Shown here piece after piece: positions 915 to 8,983 of a DNA stretch of 8,983 nucleotides. The stretch spans positions 1 to 8,983 of the forward strand of contig JABUUX010000346.1 in the NCBI GenBank assembly GCA_021442965.1. Direction: 5' to 3'. This DNA comes from Treponema sp. (lineage in GTDB: Bacteria > Spirochaetota > Spirochaetia > Treponematales > Treponemataceae). The notes beneath the pieces are model-generated. The model searched no databases. It was not told the DNA's origin and saw only the letters and a program-made list of their open reading frames with translations. Each line of letters begins with the position of its first letter. Positions within the stretch are counted from its first letter, which is position 1. A program made the position numbers and the translations under genes.

Positions 915-1256
915 ATGGATGAGACAATTACAACTACAAGTCCTGTTGGAAAACAGCTTAAAAATCTTGGAAGCGGGAAAAGTGCATCATACCTTATGTT
1001 TAATAATAAGAGAATTGCACTTGTAGCAAAAATTACGATTGGACGAGATTCTGATAATGACATTGTAGTAGATAATAAACTTGCAAGCCGCCATCATGCT
1101 GTTATTCAAAAAATTAAGAATGCTTATTTTTTGAAAGATGAAAACAGCACAAACGGAACATTTGTAAATTCTATTCGTATTCCCAAAGATAAATACGTCC
1201 GCTTGAATATTGGAGACCAGATTCAGGTAGGAAATTCAGTTTTTGTAATTTCATAA
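915..1256 (+). CDS. Small stand-alone FHA-domain protein
   Basis: This 113-residue protein consists of a short N-terminal extension and one forkhead-associated domain (about residues 22-113), the fold that binds phospho-threonine peptides. The signature residues are present in order: G43-R44, S58-R59-H60-H61 and N80-G81. R44, S58 and N80 are the expected phosphopeptide contacts, so binding ability is predicted. The N-terminus carries a Thr/Ser cluster next to acidic residues (DETITTTSP, residues 2-10). That layout resembles the phosphorylated N-terminus of actinobacterial GarA/OdhI, small FHA proteins controlled by Ser/Thr kinases, although the sequence match is only in style. There is no membrane segment, so it should be cytoplasmic. 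The start is fixed by the AGAGGAAGG site. The stop codon lies one base before the ATG of the phosphatase gene, and the kinase follows that. Its likely role is adaptor or phospho-switch for that kinase. The domain is certain; the partner is inferred. Confidence 0.92.
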   Translation: MDETITTTSPVGKQLKNLGSGKSASYLMFNNKRIALVAKITIGRDSDNDIVVDNKLASRHHAVIQKIKNAYFLKDENSTNGTFVNSIRIPKDKYVRLNIGDQIQVGNSVFVIS

Positions 1257-1257
1257 A

Positions 1258-2268
1258 ATGACAGATTTTTTTTTCAACAATATAAGACTTCCTTCAAAGG
1301 ATGAGCTTTTACAAAAAAGCAAAAAGTCTTTGGAAGTATTAAAAAACGAAGACTCTCTATACAGACCTTTGAATATAGAAGGGAATCCCGGTGGTCTTCT
1401 GGATTTTTTTTCAGATTCGCTTCCTGTGATTGTTATTCCGGATCTTCATGCACGCCCTTATTTTCTAAAAAATATTCTTGAGTATAAAATTTTACCGGAA
1501 ATAAATTTTGTAAAATCAGATAAAGAAGAAACAGTTTTTTCTGCATTGGAAAATAAATTGTTACGTGTTGTTTTTTTAGGGGATGCACTTCATTCAGAAA
1601 AAACAACTGTAGAAAGATGGAAGAGTGCTCTGGCAGATTTTGAAAATGACATATACGATGGCGATTTTATGAAAGAGGAAATGAAGTATGGACTTTCTCT
1701 TTTAATGGATTTAATGGAATTAAAAATAAAGTTTCCGTCGCATTTTCATTTTTTGAAAGGTAATCATGAAAATATTAAGAACGAGAGAAGTGGCGGAGAT
1801 TTTCCTTTTAGAAAATATGCGGATGAAGGAAATATGGTAAAGTCCTTTATGGAACAAGTTTACGGGAAAGAAACATTGGATACAATTTTTCAGTTTGAAA
1901 AAAATCTTCCTTTGCTTTATGCTTCTTCTTCCTGTTTTGTTTCTCATGCAGAACCGGCTTTTTGTTTTTCACGTGAAGAAATAATTAATTCTGTTTTATT
2001 CAGTGAAGTTGTGACCGGACTTACATGGACTGATAATGGGGATGCTGTTCAGAATAGCGTTATTCAAACTATTTCAGAAATCAGCCCGGTAAAATTTACA
2101 GAAAATCCTGTTTGGATTTCGGGGCATCGTCCGGTTCAGGAAAATTACAAATCAAAATATAAAGGTGCATTTATTCAAATTCACAATCCTTTAAAACAAA
2201 ATATTGTAATGGTATCTGAAAATAAAAAGTTTAATCCGGAATCAGATATAGTAGGAGTTGAAAAATGA
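1258..2268 (+). CDS. Calcineurin-like (PPP-type) metallophosphoesterase
   Basis: This 336-residue predicted cytoplasmic protein carries the ordered metal-ligand motifs of the calcineurin-like phosphoesterase fold: D62-L-H64 after a beta strand (VIVIPDLHAR), G108-D109 with H112 (FLGDALH), G168-N169-H170-E171, H230 (VSHAEP), and G289-H290 (ISGHRPV). The GNHE and late GHxPV motifs are closest in style to PPP-family Ser/Thr phosphatases. The second motif departs from the usual GDxVDRG: it reads GDALHSE, without the Asp-Arg-Gly. An insert of about 50 residues separates motifs two and three. It starts one base after the FHA stop, and its TGA overlaps the kinase ATG, so its translation is probably coupled to both. 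The context suggests it removes phosphate from substrates of that kinase. Other possibilities are a nucleotide or small-molecule phosphoesterase. The start codon is followed at once by a run of nine T. Fold certain, substrate inferred. Confidence 0.87.
   Translation: MTDFFFNNIRLPSKDELLQKSKKSLEVLKNEDSLYRPLNIEGNPGGLLDFFSDSLPVIVIPDLHARPYFLKNILEYKILPEINFVKSDKEETVFSALENKLLRVVFLGDALHSEKTTVERWKSALADFENDIYDGDFMKEEMKYGLSLLMDLMELKIKFPSHFHFLKGNHENIKNERSGGDFPFRKYADEGNMVKSFMEQVYGKETLDTIFQFEKNLPLLYASSSCFVSHAEPAFCFSREEIINSVLFSEVVTGLTWTDNGDAVQNSVIQTISEISPVKFTENPVWISGHRPVQENYKSKYKGAFIQIHNPLKQNIVMVSENKKFNPESDIVGVEK
2253..2257 (+). promoter_or_regulatory. Ribosome binding site of the kinase, inside the phosphatase gene
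   Basis: AGGAG lies 7 bases before the ATG at 2265, within the last codons of the phosphatase gene. Together with the ATGA stop/start overlap it supports this start rather than Met8 and points to coupled translation of phosphatase and kinase. Confidence 0.75.
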
Positions 2269-3914
2269 GTGATGAATTTCCTCCAATGATTGGAAAGTAC
2301 AAAATTCTTGGCATTGTAGCCAAGGGTGGAATGGGAGTGGTGTACCGTGCTATGCATCCTTCCCTTAAGCGTTATGTTGTAATAAAAAAATTTACTGCAC
2401 GCGGACGGGGTTCTTCTTCCAATGCTGAACGTTTTAAAAGAGAGGCTCAGATTCTTTTGGATTTGCAGAGCCCTTATATTGTTCATCTTTTTGATTATTT
2501 TACAGAAGACGGATTCCGTTATATGGTTGAAGAACTGGTGGACGGTTATGCCATAGATAAACTTATTAAGAAACAGGGCAAGATTCCGGTTCCTGTTGCT
2601 ATGCTGATTATGCAGGATGCCTGCTACGGATTAAAATATGCTCATTCTAAAAAAGTAATTCACCGTGATATAAAGCCCGGTAATATTCTTGTTTCAAAAC
2701 GCGGTGAAATTAAAATAACAGATTTTGGTATTGCAAGTGATGAAAGTGAACGTGAAGATAATCTGACCCTTCATGGTGTTGCATTGGGAACTCCCGCTTA
2801 TATGCCACCTGAACAGTTTGATGACAGTGCTTCGGTAGATAACCGTGCAGATATATACGCTTTGGGCATTACTCTTTACGAAATGATTACAGGTGTAAAA
2901 CCTTATTCCGGTGATTTTACTCCGGAAAATATAAATGTAATTAAAAAGGGAAGATACAAATCTCCAAGAAAAATTGAAAAATCAGTTCCGGTTGAAGTTC
3001 AGAAAATCATTGCAAAAATGATTAACTCAAAGGCGCGAAAAAGATTTCAGACTGTAGACGGAGTTCTTAGGGCAGTAAAAAGGTATCTTAAGCATTATGA
3101 CACTCATGAACTGCGTGTTCAGTTGGCAAGGTCTGTTTCTATAGATAAAGAATTTAAATGGACTCCTAAAGCTATGGAGCCAAAAGATAAAAAGCAGATG
3201 CTTGCAAAAAAAATTGGTCTTGGAACAGTTTGTTCTGCGGCTGTTTTAGGAGTGCTTCTTTATACGGGTGTTATTCACAGAACGATACTTGCTTATTGGT
3301 ATAATCCTGTTAATGTTGAAATGCTTATGCCTAAATCGGTATTCAGAGCGGGAGAACTGGATCTTCCTGTAAAAGCTACGTTTTATTTGAATGACGGGAA
3401 AGAGATTCCTGAAATAAAATTTACATCACGGGAATTCAGGGTTAAGGGGACGGATACCTGGTCACGCATAAAGAAAGTTTTTATTAAATCAGAAAAGAAG
3501 GCGGATTCTCCATACACTGTTTATGACATGAAAACTGTATTTCTTAGAGACGGAAATTACAGAATTAAAGTTGTTGTAGGGCCTTATGTCAGATGGAAAA
3601 GTTTTTCTGTAAAAAATGAAAAGCTTACACTTGATGTTGACTTTTTGAAAAATGAACGCCGAGAAATAAAAATCCATCCTTATGCTTATGATGCAGTTTC
3701 AGAGGAAAATATAACAGAACAGGCTGTTTTTGAAGTACAGTATAACGGTAAGTGGACTTCTATTTCTGAAGTGCCTGAAGAAAATCTTCTTTCAGGAACG
3801 GTTTGGAAAATCCGCGTAAGCTGCCCGGAATATCAGGAGGAAGTGTTTTCGCTTCTTATAGACTGGTATCAGGATGAACTGTTTCTTACAGCAGGACTTT
3901 CCAAACTTTTATAA
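2265..3914 (+). CDS. Transmembrane Ser/Thr protein kinase with novel C-terminal outer domain
   Basis: This 549-residue protein has an N-terminal Hanks-type kinase domain (about 11-275). Visible motifs are a Gly-rich loop at 19-26 (AKGGMGVV), the ATP-anchoring Lys41 in VVIKKF, helix-C Glu60, the catalytic loop H133-R134-D135 with K137 and N140, D153-F154-G155, and the P+1 loop GTPAYMPPE at 175-183. T168 and T176 are activation-loop candidates. All catalytic residues are present, so it should be active. The first Gly of the Gly-rich loop is Ala19. A basic linker leads to one membrane helix (about 317-337), then about 210 mostly beta-type residues predicted outside the inner membrane. PASTA repeats are absent. 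The last 60 residues faintly resemble a PEGA-like or carboxypeptidase-regulatory fold; this is a guess. Its ATG overlaps the phosphatase TGA, with AGGAG 7 bases upstream. An alternative start at Met8 is less likely. Kinase call very sure; the sensed signal is unknown. Confidence 0.95.
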   Translation: MSDEFPPMIGKYKILGIVAKGGMGVVYRAMHPSLKRYVVIKKFTARGRGSSSNAERFKREAQILLDLQSPYIVHLFDYFTEDGFRYMVEELVDGYAIDKLIKKQGKIPVPVAMLIMQDACYGLKYAHSKKVIHRDIKPGNILVSKRGEIKITDFGIASDESEREDNLTLHGVALGTPAYMPPEQFDDSASVDNRADIYALGITLYEMITGVKPYSGDFTPENINVIKKGRYKSPRKIEKSVPVEVQKIIAKMINSKARKRFQTVDGVLRAVKRYLKHYDTHELRVQLARSVSIDKEFKWTPKAMEPKDKKQMLAKKIGLGTVCSAAVLGVLLYTGVIHRTILAYWYNPVNVEMLMPKSVFRAGELDLPVKATFYLNDGKEIPEIKFTSREFRVKGTDTWSRIKKVFIKSEKKADSPYTVYDMKTVFLRDGNYRIKVVVGPYVRWKSFSVKNEKLTLDVDFLKNERREIKIHPYAYDAVSEENITEQAVFEVQYNGKWTSISEVPEENLLSGTVWKIRVSCPEYQEEVFSLLIDWYQDELFLTAGLSKLL

Positions 3915-3924
3915 TTTTTTATAA
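3909..3924. repeat. AT-only inverted repeat spanning both convergent stop codons
   Basis: TTATAA, then TTTT, then TTATAA forms a 6-bp AT stem with a four-base loop. The plus-strand kinase TAA (3912-3914) and the minus-strand rhomboid-like TAA (reverse complement of 3919-3921) sit symmetrically in the two arms. The stem has no G/C pair and is too weak for a standard intrinsic terminator. No other terminator is visible in the 4-base gap. Confidence 0.6.
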
Positions 3925-4701
3925 GGTAATGGTTCCTACAATCGTTGTGTCATCATCTTCTGTTGATACAACGGTTTTTTTCTTAAAACGCGGACTGTCT
4001 GATTCATTATTTAAGGCTGCACTTTGGGGTTCATCAATTTCTTCAACGTTTTTTATTTTCTTTATTTTGGAAAAAGATTTAACAGGCTTTTTTGTACTGG
4101 CTTTTGGATTTCTTTCTTTTTTAGCAGCAAGGAATGAAATTAAACTTCCAGAGATTCCTGAGGCTGTGTTTATAAGAAGCGGAATAAATGAAGCTTTTCC
4201 ATTCAGTCTTATTTCAATAAGAATAAAAAGTGCAAATATTAAAAACAGATTCAGTGATACACTTTTACTTTTGAAAGAATCAATAATTCGTAAAAATAAA
4301 ACCATACAGAAAATGCATTCTATTCCTGAAATTTGACTGGTACCGGTACAAAAGCATGCACACAGTGCTCCAGAAAAAATAACCGAAATTAGCATCATAA
4401 GAATAAGCAGAAACGTTCCGTATTTTTCTTCTGCTTCGGGGGTAATAAAAAATAAAATAGCAAGAAAAGCCCATGTTTCTACAGATTTAGTTCCAAAGAT
4501 GTGGGTAAAAATTCTTACGTAGCTTAACGGGTCTGTAAAAGAAAAAGGGTAGAGACCTTTTGGGGATGTAGGAGCTACAAAGATTTCATCAAGTGAAAGA
4601 CCTGGAAATACAGCTTCCAGAATAAAAACTGCCAGTGTAATCAGAGTCAGAACCAGAATAATAACAGGTTCAAACGTAATTTTAAATTTATTTGTTGCCA
4701 T
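3919..4701 (-). CDS. Rhomboid-fold membrane protein, probably catalytically dead, with Thr-rich tail
   Basis: This 260-residue protein has about six hydrophobic helices (near 11-31, 76-88, 97-116, 123-140, 148-164, 172-192). The layout YVRIFTHIFG (61-70), a TM2/TM3 junction EEKYG (91-95), and IS125-G126 in the fourth helix resembles rhomboid-family intramembrane proteins. The usual GxSG reads Q-I-S-G, the TM2 His and Asn of active rhomboids align with T76 and L80, and the TM6 catalytic His region reads LLINTASG with no His. Loss of protease activity is therefore likely. A cytoplasmic C-terminal region of about 65 residues is Lys-rich, then acidic, and ends in a Thr cluster (T243, T247, T252, T253, T257, T259). 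It faces the kinase gene tail to tail. The start has no clear Shine-Dalgarno; a GATAAT box 6 bases upstream could mean a leaderless message. The rhomboid assignment rests on pattern only and a plain multi-pass protein of unknown family is the alternative. Confidence 0.72.
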   Translation of the reverse strand: MATNKFKITFEPVIILVLTLITLAVFILEAVFPGLSLDEIFVAPTSPKGLYPFSFTDPLSYVRIFTHIFGTKSVETWAFLAILFFITPEAEEKYGTFLLILMMLISVIFSGALCACFCTGTSQISGIECIFCMVLFLRIIDSFKSKSVSLNLFLIFALFILIEIRLNGKASFIPLLINTASGISGSLISFLAAKKERNPKASTKKPVKSFSKIKKIKNVEEIDEPQSAALNNESDSPRFKKKTVVSTEDDDTTIVGTITL

Positions 4702-4781: not shown

Positions 4782-5144
4782 ATGGTTATCCGTGAATCTG
4801 CAGAAATGTATCTTGAAACTATTCTGGTTTTAAACCAGAAAGGACCGGTTCTTGCTGTTGAAATTGCACGAACCCTTCAAATTTCCAAACCTTCTGTCAG
4901 TGTGGCTATTCATAATCTGGAAGCCGAAAATTACATTAAAATTGATGAAAAAGGGCATATTTCTCTTTTGCAAAAAGGAAAGAAAATTGCTGAAAGAATT
5001 TATGAGCGCCATACAATTCTTACTGATTTTTTTGTAAAAATCGGAGTAAGTAAGGAACAGGCTTCGGCAGATGCGTGTAAAATTGAACATGATATCTCAG
5101 ACGAGTCCTTTCAAAAAGTAAAGGAACTTATAGCAAAATTATAA
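4782..5144 (+). CDS. DtxR/MntR-family metal-dependent transcriptional repressor (short form)
   Basis: This 120-residue protein has an N-terminal winged helix-turn-helix (about 6-68; recognition helix near ISKPSVSVAIHNLE, 34-47, wing near 50-62) followed by the helical dimerization and metal-binding domain (69-120). It opens with ESAEMYLETIL, the first-helix pattern of DtxR/MntR. There is no C-terminal SH3-like domain, so its size is MntR-like. Aligning ligands from memory, Met9 and Cys99 sit where DtxR has Met10 and Cys102 and where MntR has Asp8 and Glu99; E102 and H103 match both families. H77 and E12 match MntR. The site therefore mixes the two, and iron(II) rather than manganese sensing is a reasonable guess. 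It reads away from the rhomboid-like gene and is followed after 12 bases by the S1 gene, with no terminator between, so the two are probably one transcript. Family call firm; metal and targets inferred. Confidence 0.9.
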   Translation: MVIRESAEMYLETILVLNQKGPVLAVEIARTLQISKPSVSVAIHNLEAENYIKIDEKGHISLLQKGKKIAERIYERHTILTDFFVKIGVSKEQASADACKIEHDISDESFQKVKELIAKL

Positions 5145-5156: not shown

Positions 5157-6245
5157 ATGATGAACAACAGACTGGAAATTGGTGAACAGATTGAAACAAC
5201 AATTGTGGCTATTCAGAATGACTCTGTATTTTTGGATTTGAGTGCAAAAAGTGAAGGCATTGCAGATACTTCAGACTTTCTTGATAAGGAAGGAAATCTG
5301 ACTGTAAAAGAAGGTGACAGCGTAAAAGTATTTTTTACAGGACTTGTAAACGGAGAAATGCGTTTTACTGCAAAAATTGCAGGTGATAAAGCCGATAAAT
5401 CTATGATTGAAAACGCTTTTAATTCAAAAATTCCGGTAGACGGTCACGTTGAAAAAGAAATTAAAGGCGGATACGAAGTAAAAATCGGGCAGATTCGTGC
5501 CTTCTGTCCTTATTCTCAGATGGGCTTCAGGCAGAAGGAAGAGTCTTCATATTACGTAGGACGTACACTTCCTTTTATCATCACTGAATATAAAAATGAC
5601 GGAAAGAATGTTCTTGTTTCAAACAGAGCCATGGGTGAAATAGAACACGCCGAAAAGCTTTCTTCCTTGGAAAAAGAAATTGTGCCGGGTGCAATTGTGG
5701 AAGGTGTTGTTGAATCTGTTCAGAATTTCGGTGCCTTTGTTAATGTAAACGGATTCAGAACACTTCTTCCGGTTTCTGAAATTCAGTATGACCGCATAGA
5801 TGATATAAACTCTGTTATTTCTGCCGGACAGAGGGTTAAGGCTAAGGTTATCCGTGCTGACTGGAAAAATGAAAAAGTATCTATTAGTGTAAAAGCTTTA
5901 CTGGATGACCCGTGGCAGGCTCAGGCAAAAGACCTTAAACTTGAAACAAAATACAGCGGAAAAATTGTTCGTGTTGCAGACTTTGGCATTTTTGTGAATA
6001 TTGCAAAAGGAATAGACGGACTTGTGCATATTTCAGAACTTGAAGGTGTAAATAAAAACACAAATATAAAGAAGATTTACAAAATCGGAGAAGAAATGGC
6101 GGTTGTTATTAAGGAAATTGATGTAAAAAACAAGCGTCTTGCTCTGATTCCGGCTTCTTCTGTGGAACAGGATTTAAGCGCTGCATCTTATCTGAAAAAT
6201 CAGAATGATGGGGATGACGGTTATAATCCTTTTGCCTGTCTTTAA
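5157..6245 (+). CDS. Four-repeat S1 RNA-binding protein (ribosomal protein S1-like)
   Basis: This 362-residue predicted cytoplasmic protein is built of four S1-type OB folds at about 8-74, 93-158, 179-246 and 266-331. The last two are the most typical: VEGVVESVQNFGAFVNV followed by LLPVSEI, and YSGKIVRVADFGIFVNI followed by GLVHISEL, with the strand-5 endings VSISVKAL and LALIPAS. The first two are more diverged, as in the ribosome-docking repeats of S1. It is much shorter than the six-repeat S1 of E. coli and closer in size to the four-repeat S1-like proteins of Gram-positives. Because S1 of some treponemes is annotated as a fusion to cytidylate kinase, this separate copy may be an additional RNA-binding protein rather than the main S1; that is inference. 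It follows the DtxR-family gene by 12 bases and ends 19 bases before a hairpin terminator. The start could be 5157 or 5160. Domain call very sure; exact role open. Confidence 0.92.
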   Translation: MMNNRLEIGEQIETTIVAIQNDSVFLDLSAKSEGIADTSDFLDKEGNLTVKEGDSVKVFFTGLVNGEMRFTAKIAGDKADKSMIENAFNSKIPVDGHVEKEIKGGYEVKIGQIRAFCPYSQMGFRQKEESSYYVGRTLPFIITEYKNDGKNVLVSNRAMGEIEHAEKLSSLEKEIVPGAIVEGVVESVQNFGAFVNVNGFRTLLPVSEIQYDRIDDINSVISAGQRVKAKVIRADWKNEKVSISVKALLDDPWQAQAKDLKLETKYSGKIVRVADFGIFVNIAKGIDGLVHISELEGVNKNTNIKKIYKIGEEMAVVIKEIDVKNKRLALIPASSVEQDLSAASYLKNQNDGDDGYNPFACL

Positions 6246-6395: not shown

Positions 6396-6449
6396 GGATT
6401 TTTTGTACTGTTTTTATGCAGTTTAAATTTAAGTTTAGTACTCACTTTT

Positions 6450-6454
6450 GGAGG
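6450..6454 (+). promoter_or_regulatory. Strong ribosome binding site of the lipoprotein gene
   Basis: GGAGG lies 6 bases before the ATG at 6461, the strongest Shine-Dalgarno in the window. It fixes the start and suggests high translation. Confidence 0.8.
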
Positions 6455-6460
6455 TTACTT

Positions 6461-8983
6461 ATGAATAGAAAGACTTTAAATTTTATTAATCTTTTTGCAG
6501 GATTTTTGGGACTGGTTGTTTTTTGTGTAACAACTTTTTCTTGCGAAATCGGACTTGGTGCATCGGTAGATACAAGCCGACCTACAGTGGAGATAACTTA
6601 TCCTCCTAAAAATTCCATCATCCGCGATACCTTTATTCTGGCAGGAAATGCAACGGATGACCGCGAACTTTCTTCTGTAAAAGTAACTGTAACCAGTGCA
6701 ACTACAGGAAAAAGTTTTACAAAAGAGCTTCCTGTAACGGGAACCAAAGTACCTCAAGGTACGGCAACAAGTGATTCTGCTCAATGGCAGTTTGAATTGA
6801 ATAAGAAGAATGATGACGGCACTTGGGAAATGCTTGACGGCAAATACACAATTGAAGTTATAAGCATTGATAAAGAAAACAAAGAATCTCAGGCAGCAAG
6901 TCTTACTGTAGAAGTAGATAATACCGCTCCATTCTTTATTGCAAGTAAACCTGGTTCAAAACGTGTAAATAACCCAAGCCGCTACGGTTCAAATCTTTCT
7001 GTTACCGGAACTATAGAAGAAGCACATTCTATTGTAAGAATGGATATGAAAGTATTTGAGCTTGATGCAAGCGGAAACAGAATACCAGGTGATGAGGGTG
7101 TTCTTTTTTCTGAACAGGAAATTCAGATTTCAAATTCTCACGGGGTAAAATTTGCAGACAACAACAAGGCCGACGGTGAAACTTTAAAAGAAAACTATAA
7201 GAAACTTTATAAAAATGCTGCCGACTCAAAAAACTATTCCTGTGAACTGGAATTTTTTGATAATGCAAAACAATATATAAATCCTGGCGAAGAAAAAAAT
7301 GAAACAGCGGGAAACAGTACTAAAGATTTTTATATTACAGATGATTTAACTTCTCTTACTTCTGTAAGTCAGGGGCTTGGTCTTAGTACAGAAGAAATCA
7401 GAGATATTTTTAACGGTACAAAAACTATTGATTCCGGTGCAGCTGTAAAAAAGATTCTGGAAGACAACACAAGAAATGAAGTATTTTTCAGCTTGAATCC
7501 AAAGAACAATCCGTATTTTAATATTGGTTCCAGTTCTTTTGAAGATGGATTGCCTGAAGATAAAATCATTTCTACGGCTAACTCCGGAATAAGTATTACA
7601 GTTCAGTATACTGCCGGCCGTGATGACATTAACGTTGTACCTTCAAGTTTAAGGCTTTTTATGGTGGGTCCTTTTGACAGTTATACAACAGCCCTTGGGA
7701 ACGCCATTTTTGATTCATCAAAATACATAAAGGCAAAGAGCGGGTATCCAAAAGAAGAAGTAAAAAACGGAGCTTCTTATACAAAATATGAATATGAGGT
7801 GGACTGTTCCGGAATAACAGAGTTTGGTGCAGATAAGGTTGTACCTCTTTCAATAAAACAGACAGGAAATGAAGATTTTGAACTTGATGCTTCTGCAACT
7901 AATTTGAATTATAACTATATATTACCAACTCTTACTCCTGGAAAATTTTACTTCCTTGTTGCAGTGGGTGAAGATCAGGAAAAAAACAGCATTCTGTGTG
8001 CAGACGGATACTTTTATGGCTTTAAAGCTCAAGGTTCAGGAACACCGCCACAGCTTACAATCAACTCATATAATGAGTCTGCAGGAAAATACTTAAACCT
8101 TGTAAACAATTCAACTGTAAATTCAAAGTCTTATGAATTTACAGGATCAGCTACTGGTGAAATAGAAATTTTTAAAGTGTTGTGTACAGTTAACGTAAAG
8201 TGTGGAAACGAAGTTAAGTTGAACACGACCTATGACTGTAATATTGCAGGACAATTAACAAGCACAACATGGAGTTTTGAGTATCCTGGAAGCCTTCAGA
8301 ATACTGTAGCTTTTGAGGATGATAAGGAATACACAGTGGGCTTTACCTTTAAAGCAGAGGATAAAGATGGTCGTTCTTCTTCTGATGTATACCGTGAAAT
8401 TACTGTAGACCTTAAAAAGCCTGAAATCAGCATTAACGCAGTTCAACCGAATGTTGAATACAATGGAAAAACTTGTGTAAATAAAAAAATTACAGTTTCT
8501 TTCAATGCAAGTGATGCAATAAAATACTCTAAAACAAAATGCCAGTTCTATGCCGGAACAAGAACAGATGCAAATAAACTTGGTACTGAGCAGGAAAATA
8601 ATAATGTAAACGGAAACTTTACAGTTGATACATCAAGTGTAGATAAAAAAGATTTGATTATTGTACTGACTGCTATTGATGAAGCGGGAAACGAAAAAGA
8701 ACTTGTAAATACTGATTATTACATTGACCAGGATTCTGATAATCCTGTAGTAGATGTTTCAAACTCTGCTGACAGTTCAATCGGTTTTAACGGCATTAAT
8801 AAGGATAAGAACCTCTTTACAATTAACGGAAGTCATGCGGGAAGTATTTCAACTACAGTAACTGATGATGATTCTGTTTCTGAAATTTACGCTTACTATT
8901 ACAAAGCCGGTAATGATGATGACCCGGACAATACTCTTGGAACAAGAACAGAATTCTACAAAGAAACAGGAAAAAATGGAACT
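6461..8983 (+). CDS. Large surface or periplasmic lipoprotein with Ig-like repeats, 3' end missing
   Basis: The frame opening at this ATG has no stop for 841 codons and continues past the window. Residues 1-28 form a lipoprotein signal: basic MNRK, a hydrophobic stretch (6-23), then T25-F-S-C28. Cys28 is the predicted lipidated residue; the -3 Thr breaks the E. coli lipobox but fits the looser spirochaete rule. The rest is rich in Thr, Ser, Asn and beta-strand patterns. Four strand starts with the same style (P41-TVEI, P530-QLTI, P654-EISI, P762-VVDV) each begin an Ig-like fold; the first reads PPKNSIIRDTFILAGNATDD, typical of bacterial Ig-like domains that recur as 'x-aspects, tension, DNTAP' units (DNTAP near 150). 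Residues about 155-525 are less clearly repeated. It probably sits on an outer or periplasmic leaflet and may act in adhesion or envelope structure, but no specific ligand or enzyme motif was found. Not linked to the S1 gene, which is terminated upstream. Confidence 0.85.
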   Translation, partial: MNRKTLNFINLFAGFLGLVVFCVTTFSCEIGLGASVDTSRPTVEITYPPKNSIIRDTFILAGNATDDRELSSVKVTVTSATTGKSFTKELPVTGTKVPQGTATSDSAQWQFELNKKNDDGTWEMLDGKYTIEVISIDKENKESQAASLTVEVDNTAPFFIASKPGSKRVNNPSRYGSNLSVTGTIEEAHSIVRMDMKVFELDASGNRIPGDEGVLFSEQEIQISNSHGVKFADNNKADGETLKENYKKLYKNAADSKNYSCELEFFDNAKQYINPGEEKNETAGNSTKDFYITDDLTSLTSVSQGLGLSTEEIRDIFNGTKTIDSGAAVKKILEDNTRNEVFFSLNPKNNPYFNIGSSSFEDGLPEDKIISTANSGISITVQYTAGRDDINVVPSSLRLFMVGPFDSYTTALGNAIFDSSKYIKAKSGYPKEEVKNGASYTKYEYEVDCSGITEFGADKVVPLSIKQTGNEDFELDASATNLNYNYILPTLTPGKFYFLVAVGEDQEKNSILCADGYFYGFKAQGSGTPPQLTINSYNESAGKYLNLVNNSTVNSKSYEFTGSATGEIEIFKVLCTVNVKCGNEVKLNTTYDCNIAGQLTSTTWSFEYPGSLQNTVAFEDDKEYTVGFTFKAEDKDGRSSSDVYREITVDLKKPEISINAVQPNVEYNGKTCVNKKITVSFNASDAIKYSKTKCQFYAGTRTDANKLGTEQENNNVNGNFTVDTSSVDKKDLIIVLTAIDEAGNEKELVNTDYYIDQDSDNPVVDVSNSADSSIGFNGINKDKNLFTINGSHAGSISTTVTDDDSVSEIYAYYYKAGNDDDPDNTLGTRTEFYKETGKNGT

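Follow-up and report, generated by a model that had tools for sequence, protein, structure and literature searches.

What do an FHA-domain protein, a metallophosphatase and a Ser/Thr kinase do together when their genes abut on one strand of a Treponema-like bacterium? The locus lies in a stretch of 8,983 nucleotides (Treponema sp., GenBank assembly GCA_021442965.1, contig JABUUX010000346.1), here called the window, in which the plus strand encodes, in order, a 113-residue FHA protein (915..1256), a 336-residue PPP-like metallophosphatase (1258..2268) and a 549-residue membrane Ser/Thr kinase (2265..3914). We propose that the trio may form one phosphothreonine switch with a writer, an eraser and a reader, whose targets would be a threonine tail at the N-terminus of the FHA protein and a related tail at the C-terminus of a rhomboid-related membrane protein; judged from the sequences, this reading stands at about even chances. 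It draws on observations of gene order, kinase motifs, phosphothreonine-binding residues, a predicted PPP fold, tail conservation and the co-occurrence of tail and module. In kind, the trio is a variant of the known kinase, phosphatase and FHA sets, with a PPP-like enzyme where PP2C is usual. The two short tails are named as concrete candidate substrates and thus make the pathway testable with purified proteins; if true, the rhomboid tail as a target would link a rhomboid-related membrane protein with Ser/Thr phosphorylation.

The gene order extends beyond the window. A first scan with the phosphatase against named genome contigs, a search whose reach is limited to close relatives, turned up 16 loci. 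Fifteen of them carry the titles Treponema, Spirochaetaceae, Spirochaetales or Spirochaetes, and the remaining one is from Brucepastera parasyntrophica, itself a spirochaete. Profile searches of a phylum sample of 296 genomes, whose co-occurrence, adjacency and tail counts treat non-independent genomes as independent, matched the phosphatase in 73 genomes at E<=0.001 and in 64 at E<1e-50. We compared 77 loci, window included, after removal of five copies of the same locus and of seven weak paralogues (L113-L119, which lowered the count from 84 to 77); near-identical genomes are present among them (e.g., L094/L095 and L100/L102/L103), so the loci are not independent. The kinase gene lies directly downstream of the phosphatase gene on the same strand in 74/77 loci and the FHA gene directly upstream in 40/77, all 40 of which also have the kinase. 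The order given for the window in the preliminary description, surveyed around homologues, therefore recurs in relatives more often than by chance. The junctions that it reported are also correct: the FHA stop codon TAA (1254-1256) and the phosphatase ATG at 1258 are separated by the single base 1257, and the phosphatase TGA (2266-2268) overlaps the kinase ATG, which starts at 2265, in a shared ATGA. Across loci the exact junctions are variable; counted from the starts of the longest open reading frames (ORFs), the ATGA overlap (-4) is found in 13/74 phosphatase-kinase junctions and a gap or overlap of <=20 bases in 48/74, and the one-base gap in 7/40 FHA-phosphatase junctions.

Among the 64 phosphatase genomes (E<1e-50), the kinase adjoins in 62 and the FHA gene in 32, and a universal set of the three genes in spirochaetes was rejected on these numbers (64/296 and 32). 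Such patchy presence agrees with a 2005 survey (PMC1262709) that reports no Ser/Thr/Tyr kinase identified in Treponema pallidum and Borrelia burgdorferi. The sensor domain of the kinase occurs in 57/296 genomes (E<1e-30), in 55 together with the phosphatase; at the same threshold nine sampled genomes have the phosphatase without a sensor match and two the sensor without the phosphatase, and most of the nine presumably carry a lower-scoring sensor part, because the kinase adjoins in 62/64. Across 74 loci, the distances between phosphatases are correlated with those between kinases (r=0.70; 0/999 permutations as high), which partly mirrors shared ancestry. Of the genomes with a small FHA match, 36/36 at E<1e-40 and 45/46 at E<1e-30 have the phosphatase. 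In the 32 sampled phosphatase genomes where the FHA gene does not adjoin, a small FHA homologue (E<1e-30) is located elsewhere in 13, in a few within 2 kb. With the FHA gene adjacent in 40/77 loci and separate in 13/32 of these genomes, the earlier picture of a self-contained module with fixed stoichiometry is not borne out. On the phosphatase tree (76 sequences, excluding the split phosphatase of L080), FHA adjacency changes once, at a Shimodaira-Hasegawa-like approximate likelihood ratio (SH-aLRT) of 92, below the program's 95 mark. The kinase of B. parasyntrophica (L010) and the phosphatase of L080 are each split into two ORFs, by sequencing error or decay.

The kinase has its catalytic domain at residues 13-262 (Pfam Pkinase, 179.1 bits, 1.4e-52), with HRDIKPGN and DFG intact, and aligns with homologues (16 other ORFs from 15 loci). 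A single hydrophobic stretch in the hydropathy scan, residues 317-338 (3213..3278, plus strand), represents the transmembrane segment, followed by a presumed extracytoplasmic sensor, residues 340-549 (3282..3911, plus strand). These 210 residues are predicted to form two beta domains, an Ig-like sandwich and a transthyretin-like domain, with modest scores; the fold search gave modest matches only and no ligand is inferred. No PASTA domain was found in Pfam, and the NF033483 model (PknB_PASTA) gives 250 bits against a cut-off of 450; a PASTA kinase identity was rejected on both counts. An N-terminal DxT[VI] tail on the kinase itself was likewise discarded as a general feature (1/40 FHA-type kinases, 0/34 others).

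The candidate eraser carries the motifs PDLHxR, GDxxHxE, GNHEN, SH[AS]EP and GHR, and its Pfam Metallophos score is weak (22.1 bits against a cut-off of 21.5). Its predicted fold is calcineurin-type, near PP1, PP2A and PP5; the 50 Foldseek matches listed have template modelling scores (TM-scores) of 0.50-0.59 by query length, and the 50 VIA matches listed are protein phosphatases, the top rows being PP5 and PP1 across 249-255 residues. The two-metal ligand positions DxH, GD, GNH, H and H (D62, H64, D109, N169, H170, H230 and H290), roles that we assign from the known PPP motifs, are invariant in 28 sequences. The hallmark of PPP enzymes is GDxVDRG with its Asp and Arg, and because it is absent here the enzyme, PPP-like as to its predicted fold and the positions of its ligands, is not filed as a canonical PPP. 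A PP2C identity was rejected, as no PP2C domain was matched in Pfam or NCBIfam at E<=0.01. PP2C_2 is above its cut-off in 6/40 module genomes and reaches E<=0.001 in 9/40. The proposal that a calcineurin-fold phosphatase takes the place of PP2C stands as to predicted fold and position; the missing GDxVDRG keeps the enzyme out of the canonical PPPs. The excluded paralogues L113-L119 are distant metallophosphatases that begin with an RPxxxxGxPGGL-like sequence and contain GDxxH; L115 carries two CBS domains as a fusion and L114 is similar in appearance.

The FHA protein is a clear member of its family (Pfam FHA, 81.3 bits, 6.8e-23). In an alignment of 55 proteins, 40 phosphatase-adjacent and 15 non-adjacent, residues R44, S58, R59, H61 and N80, which we take to be the usual phosphothreonine-binding places, are identical in 55/55. 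The N-terminal tail, residues 1-15 (915..959, plus strand), is a candidate phospho-switch with its Thr4 codon at 924-926: T4 is found in 55/55, I5 in 53/55 (Val in two), S9 in 54/55 and G12 in 55/55, and residues 16-24 are variable in the same sequences. A conserved tail ahead of a variable linker is what one would expect if the tail were short and regulatory, by analogy with OdhI and DgcB. Since the Thr4 tail is conserved, the FHA protein may combine the roles of substrate and reader; the role of reader proposed earlier agrees with its intact binding residues, and may not be its only one. The alignment leaves out weak matches (L073, L091, L092) and a second small FHA family (L130, L131, L134, L135); some of these sequences likewise begin [DE]xTV, and at L134 and L135 the gene of this second family, with a DxTV-type start, lies in divergent orientation to the gene of another kinase with a match to the kinase profile. 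A type VI secretion pathway (PpkA/PppA/Fha) was rejected (the TagH-type FHA model TIGR03354 scores 49 against a cut-off of 120.25, and the phosphatase is not PP2C).

The second candidate target is a rhomboid-related membrane protein of 260 residues, encoded at 3919..4701 on the minus strand and convergent with the kinase gene. The window protein has no Pfam match itself; 13/14 other homologues carry PF01694, and homologue L137 exceeds the Rhomboid cut-off. The catalytic motif of rhomboid proteases, GxSG, is absent from the aligned window copy and is found by regular expression in some tail-bearing homologues. The protein ends in EDDDTTIVGTITL (3919..3960, minus strand), a candidate phosphosite tail recognized by its motif across loci, and homologue P0125 ends likewise in DDDxTVxGT; acidic-x-Thr-[Ile/Val] is common to this tail and the FHA N-terminal tail. 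A core-only profile, tail excluded, matched 67/296 genomes at E<=1e-8, and C-termini were read at 63 loci from 62 genomes (the 22 negative loci are 21 genomes, G103 occurring twice), leaving out weak matches of G040, G059, G066, G091 and G116 and a second copy of G292. The tail motif is present at 25/31 FHA-adjacent loci, 0/10 other phosphatase-bearing loci and 0/22 phosphatase-negative loci. Four genomes that lack a phosphatase, sensor-domain or small-FHA match (L161-L164) have a close rhomboid homologue with a long linker and no tail. A strict DNA pattern of the tail occurs in 9/23 FHA-module genomes, once each and always in the rhomboid-related gene, and in 0/17 phosphatase-negative genomes; a reversed control pattern gave one match in 40 genomes. 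On the rhomboid tree the module label changes 6 times and the tail 8 times. For the Treponema phosphatase homologue P0019 and the rhomboid-related homologue P0125 the longest contig is 80210 bases in both cases, and the genes may be linked.

In the proposed switch, a signal outside the inner membrane would be sensed by the kinase through its Ig/transthyretin-like part, and the kinase would phosphorylate acidic-x-Thr-[Ile/Val] tails, namely the N-terminal one of the FHA protein, at Thr4, and the C-terminal one of the rhomboid-related protein. The FHA domain would bind its own phosphothreonine tail, closing itself as in GarA/OdhI, or would bind the rhomboid phosphothreonine tail and move to the membrane, and the PPP-like phosphatase would strip the phosphate and reset the switch. 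The phosphorylation, binding and dephosphorylation steps and the signal are all ones that we infer. A more specific relay in Treponema-type spirochaetes is possible, with the balance somewhat against it: both tails would be marked by one kinase and compete for the FHA domain, which would be either self-closed or in a membrane complex with the rhomboid-related protein, often a pseudoprotease, and a new PPP-like subfamily would reset it.

Several observations weigh against the proposed switch. The adjacent kinase is missing in 3/77 loci, and the phosphatase has GDxxHxE in place of GDxVDRG, with G108, D109, H112 and E114 invariant. The hydrophobic +3 residue, stressed for DgcB (PMC6733907), is not conserved after Thr4. 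When the tail motif was set down, 24 tails had already been read, and it was then used on the full set; it fails in 6/31 FHA-module loci, and the strict DNA pattern is unmatched in 14/23 FHA-module genomes. The rhomboid-related gene adjoins the module in the window, but in the 31 genomes where it was sought it is on another contig or far off. Tail and module have much of a single lineage in common, and well-supported branches of the rhomboid tree give 1 independent contrast, whose direction varies between pairings (the same way in 0.8, no difference in 0.2). Because of this one contrast, the tail-module association is a strong lead and not proof.

Other explanations share parts of the same evidence. 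The FHA protein might read the kinase itself, at an autophosphorylated activation segment or juxtamembrane part, and act as scaffold or adaptor, in which case its N-terminal tail would be another contact and the rhomboid tail unrelated. Thr residues are present in the activation segment of the window kinase, the three-gene adjacency would need no extra partner, and PknB is reported to recruit GarA via its activation loop; by itself, however, this explanation accounts neither for the invariant Thr4 ahead of a variable linker nor for the rhomboid tail that tracks the FHA module, and we consider it quite unlikely. The rhomboid tail could also be a PDZ or protease ligand with a hydrophobic C-terminus (e.g., GTLKF or GTIEL), kept with the FHA-adjacent module by shared descent. 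Many tails end [IL]-x-[FLI], which resembles a PDZ ligand, and few independent events separate tail and module, yet acidic-x-Thr-[VI]-[VI] is kept in tails without such an end (L142, L154) and the four close homologues in phosphatase-negative genomes have no tail, so that a ligand role appears somewhat unlikely.

The metallophosphatase, on the other hand, might act on a nucleotide or another small phosphate ester and share a pathway or transcript with the kinase without being its eraser. Calcineurin-fold enzymes include nucleotide hydrolases, and the altered GDxVDRG motif, the marginal Pfam score and TM-scores of only 0.50-0.59 among the 50 Foldseek matches listed would suit such a role. The 50 VIA matches listed are nevertheless protein phosphatases headed by PP5 and PP1, the enzyme is paired with the kinase in 74/77 loci, and PP2C_2 is mostly missing, all of which make a small-ester enzyme improbable.

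The phosphatase and kinase are found in two neighbourhood architectures. In type 1, that of the window, the order is FHA, phosphatase, kinase, and a gene of one family follows the kinase on the same strand in 19/40 FHA-type loci; the tested copy (L006:10683-13118) is a Lon protease by Pfam. In type 2 (L016, L064, L108 and others) the order is a family of ~176 residues, phosphatase, kinase, a membrane protein with a C-terminal FHA-like domain and a vWA protein with a C-terminal FHA-like part. Pfam gives no match at E<=1 for the tested protein of the 176-residue family; a related gene at type 2 loci, often divergent, fuses this domain to an HU-like DNA-binding domain at its end. The 176-residue family and the membrane FHA-like protein are both without a genome-wide match (E<=1e-10) in the 32 FHA-adjacent sample genomes, and have strong matches in 27 and 26, respectively, of the remaining 32 genomes with the phosphatase. 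Both sets are present in L108, where the small FHA gene lies 1.9 kb upstream, so type 1 as a reduction would fit. In 16 sequences of the membrane proteins, the FHA-like domain appears to be without the usual Arg/Ser/Asn set and so may not read phosphothreonine.

As for expression in the window, the kinase ATG is preceded by AGGAG 7 nt upstream and the FHA ATG by AGAGGAAGG 8 nt upstream, both read by eye; no such ribosome-binding-type site was seen by eye near the phosphatase ATG, so re-initiation after the FHA stop would fit. Promoter-like sites between 600 and 5200 show no excess (14 found against a mean of 15.0 in shuffles), and therefore transcript limits cannot be drawn from sequence. A DUF2974 gene (PF11187, Mbeg1-like) ends 29 bases upstream of the FHA gene. 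A gene of this family lies upstream in the same orientation in just 14/40 FHA-type loci, with an opposite-strand ORF intervening in 5/14, and the gene, suggested earlier as a possible part of the same transcript, was dropped as a constant part of the module. Farther on, the window encodes a short DtxR/MntR-like regulator (120 residues, 4782-5144), an S1-domain protein (5157-6245) and a large protein with a bacterial Ig-type domain (Big_7; 6416-8983), truncated by the window end.

Full-text searches brought up no description of a kinase-phosphatase-reader set for spirochaetes among the papers listed, which is weak evidence of absence since most of these were covered as listings and subscription journals are mostly uncovered; a single search for work joining rhomboid, FHA domain and phosphothreonine yielded no paper. 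Compared with known systems, eukaryotic PPP phosphatases (PP5, PP1) share 17-20% identity with the enzyme and have GDxVDRG where it reads GDxxHxE. The Sulfolobus network of ArnA (FHA) and ArnB (vWA) is described with kinases and a PP2A phosphatase (PMC6509490), and a vWA protein bearing an FHA-like part is likewise found in the fuller neighbourhood of the spirochaetes; the network is archaeal and controls archaellum genes. In Bdellovibrio DgcB the phosphorylated N-terminal tail is a ligand of the protein's own FHA domain (PMC6733907), but DgcB has a GGDEF output domain and the 113-residue protein has none. PASTA kinase-PP2C pairs (PrkC/PrpC, Stk1/Stp1; PMC6213207) similarly set a membrane Ser/Thr kinase beside its phosphatase, whereas no PASTA domain was found in the trio and its phosphatase is of another fold. 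The GarA/OdhI systems of Actinobacteria, with PknB/PknG and PstP/Ppp, combine a small FHA protein, a phosphorylatable N-terminal Thr tail, a Hanks-type kinase and a cognate phosphatase; OdhI becomes phosphorylated on Thr14/Thr15, and Ppp dephosphorylates it (PMC2784874). The trio differs in its PPP-like phosphatase, against PP2C (PstP/Ppp), in its tail, which reads DxTIxxxSxxG, and in that its three genes abut, and the OdhI equivalog model scores 39.2 on the window FHA protein against a cut-off of 200. What the two would have in common, judging from the alignment, is a short tail that precedes the FHA domain and holds a conserved Thr, here Thr4 in 55/55.

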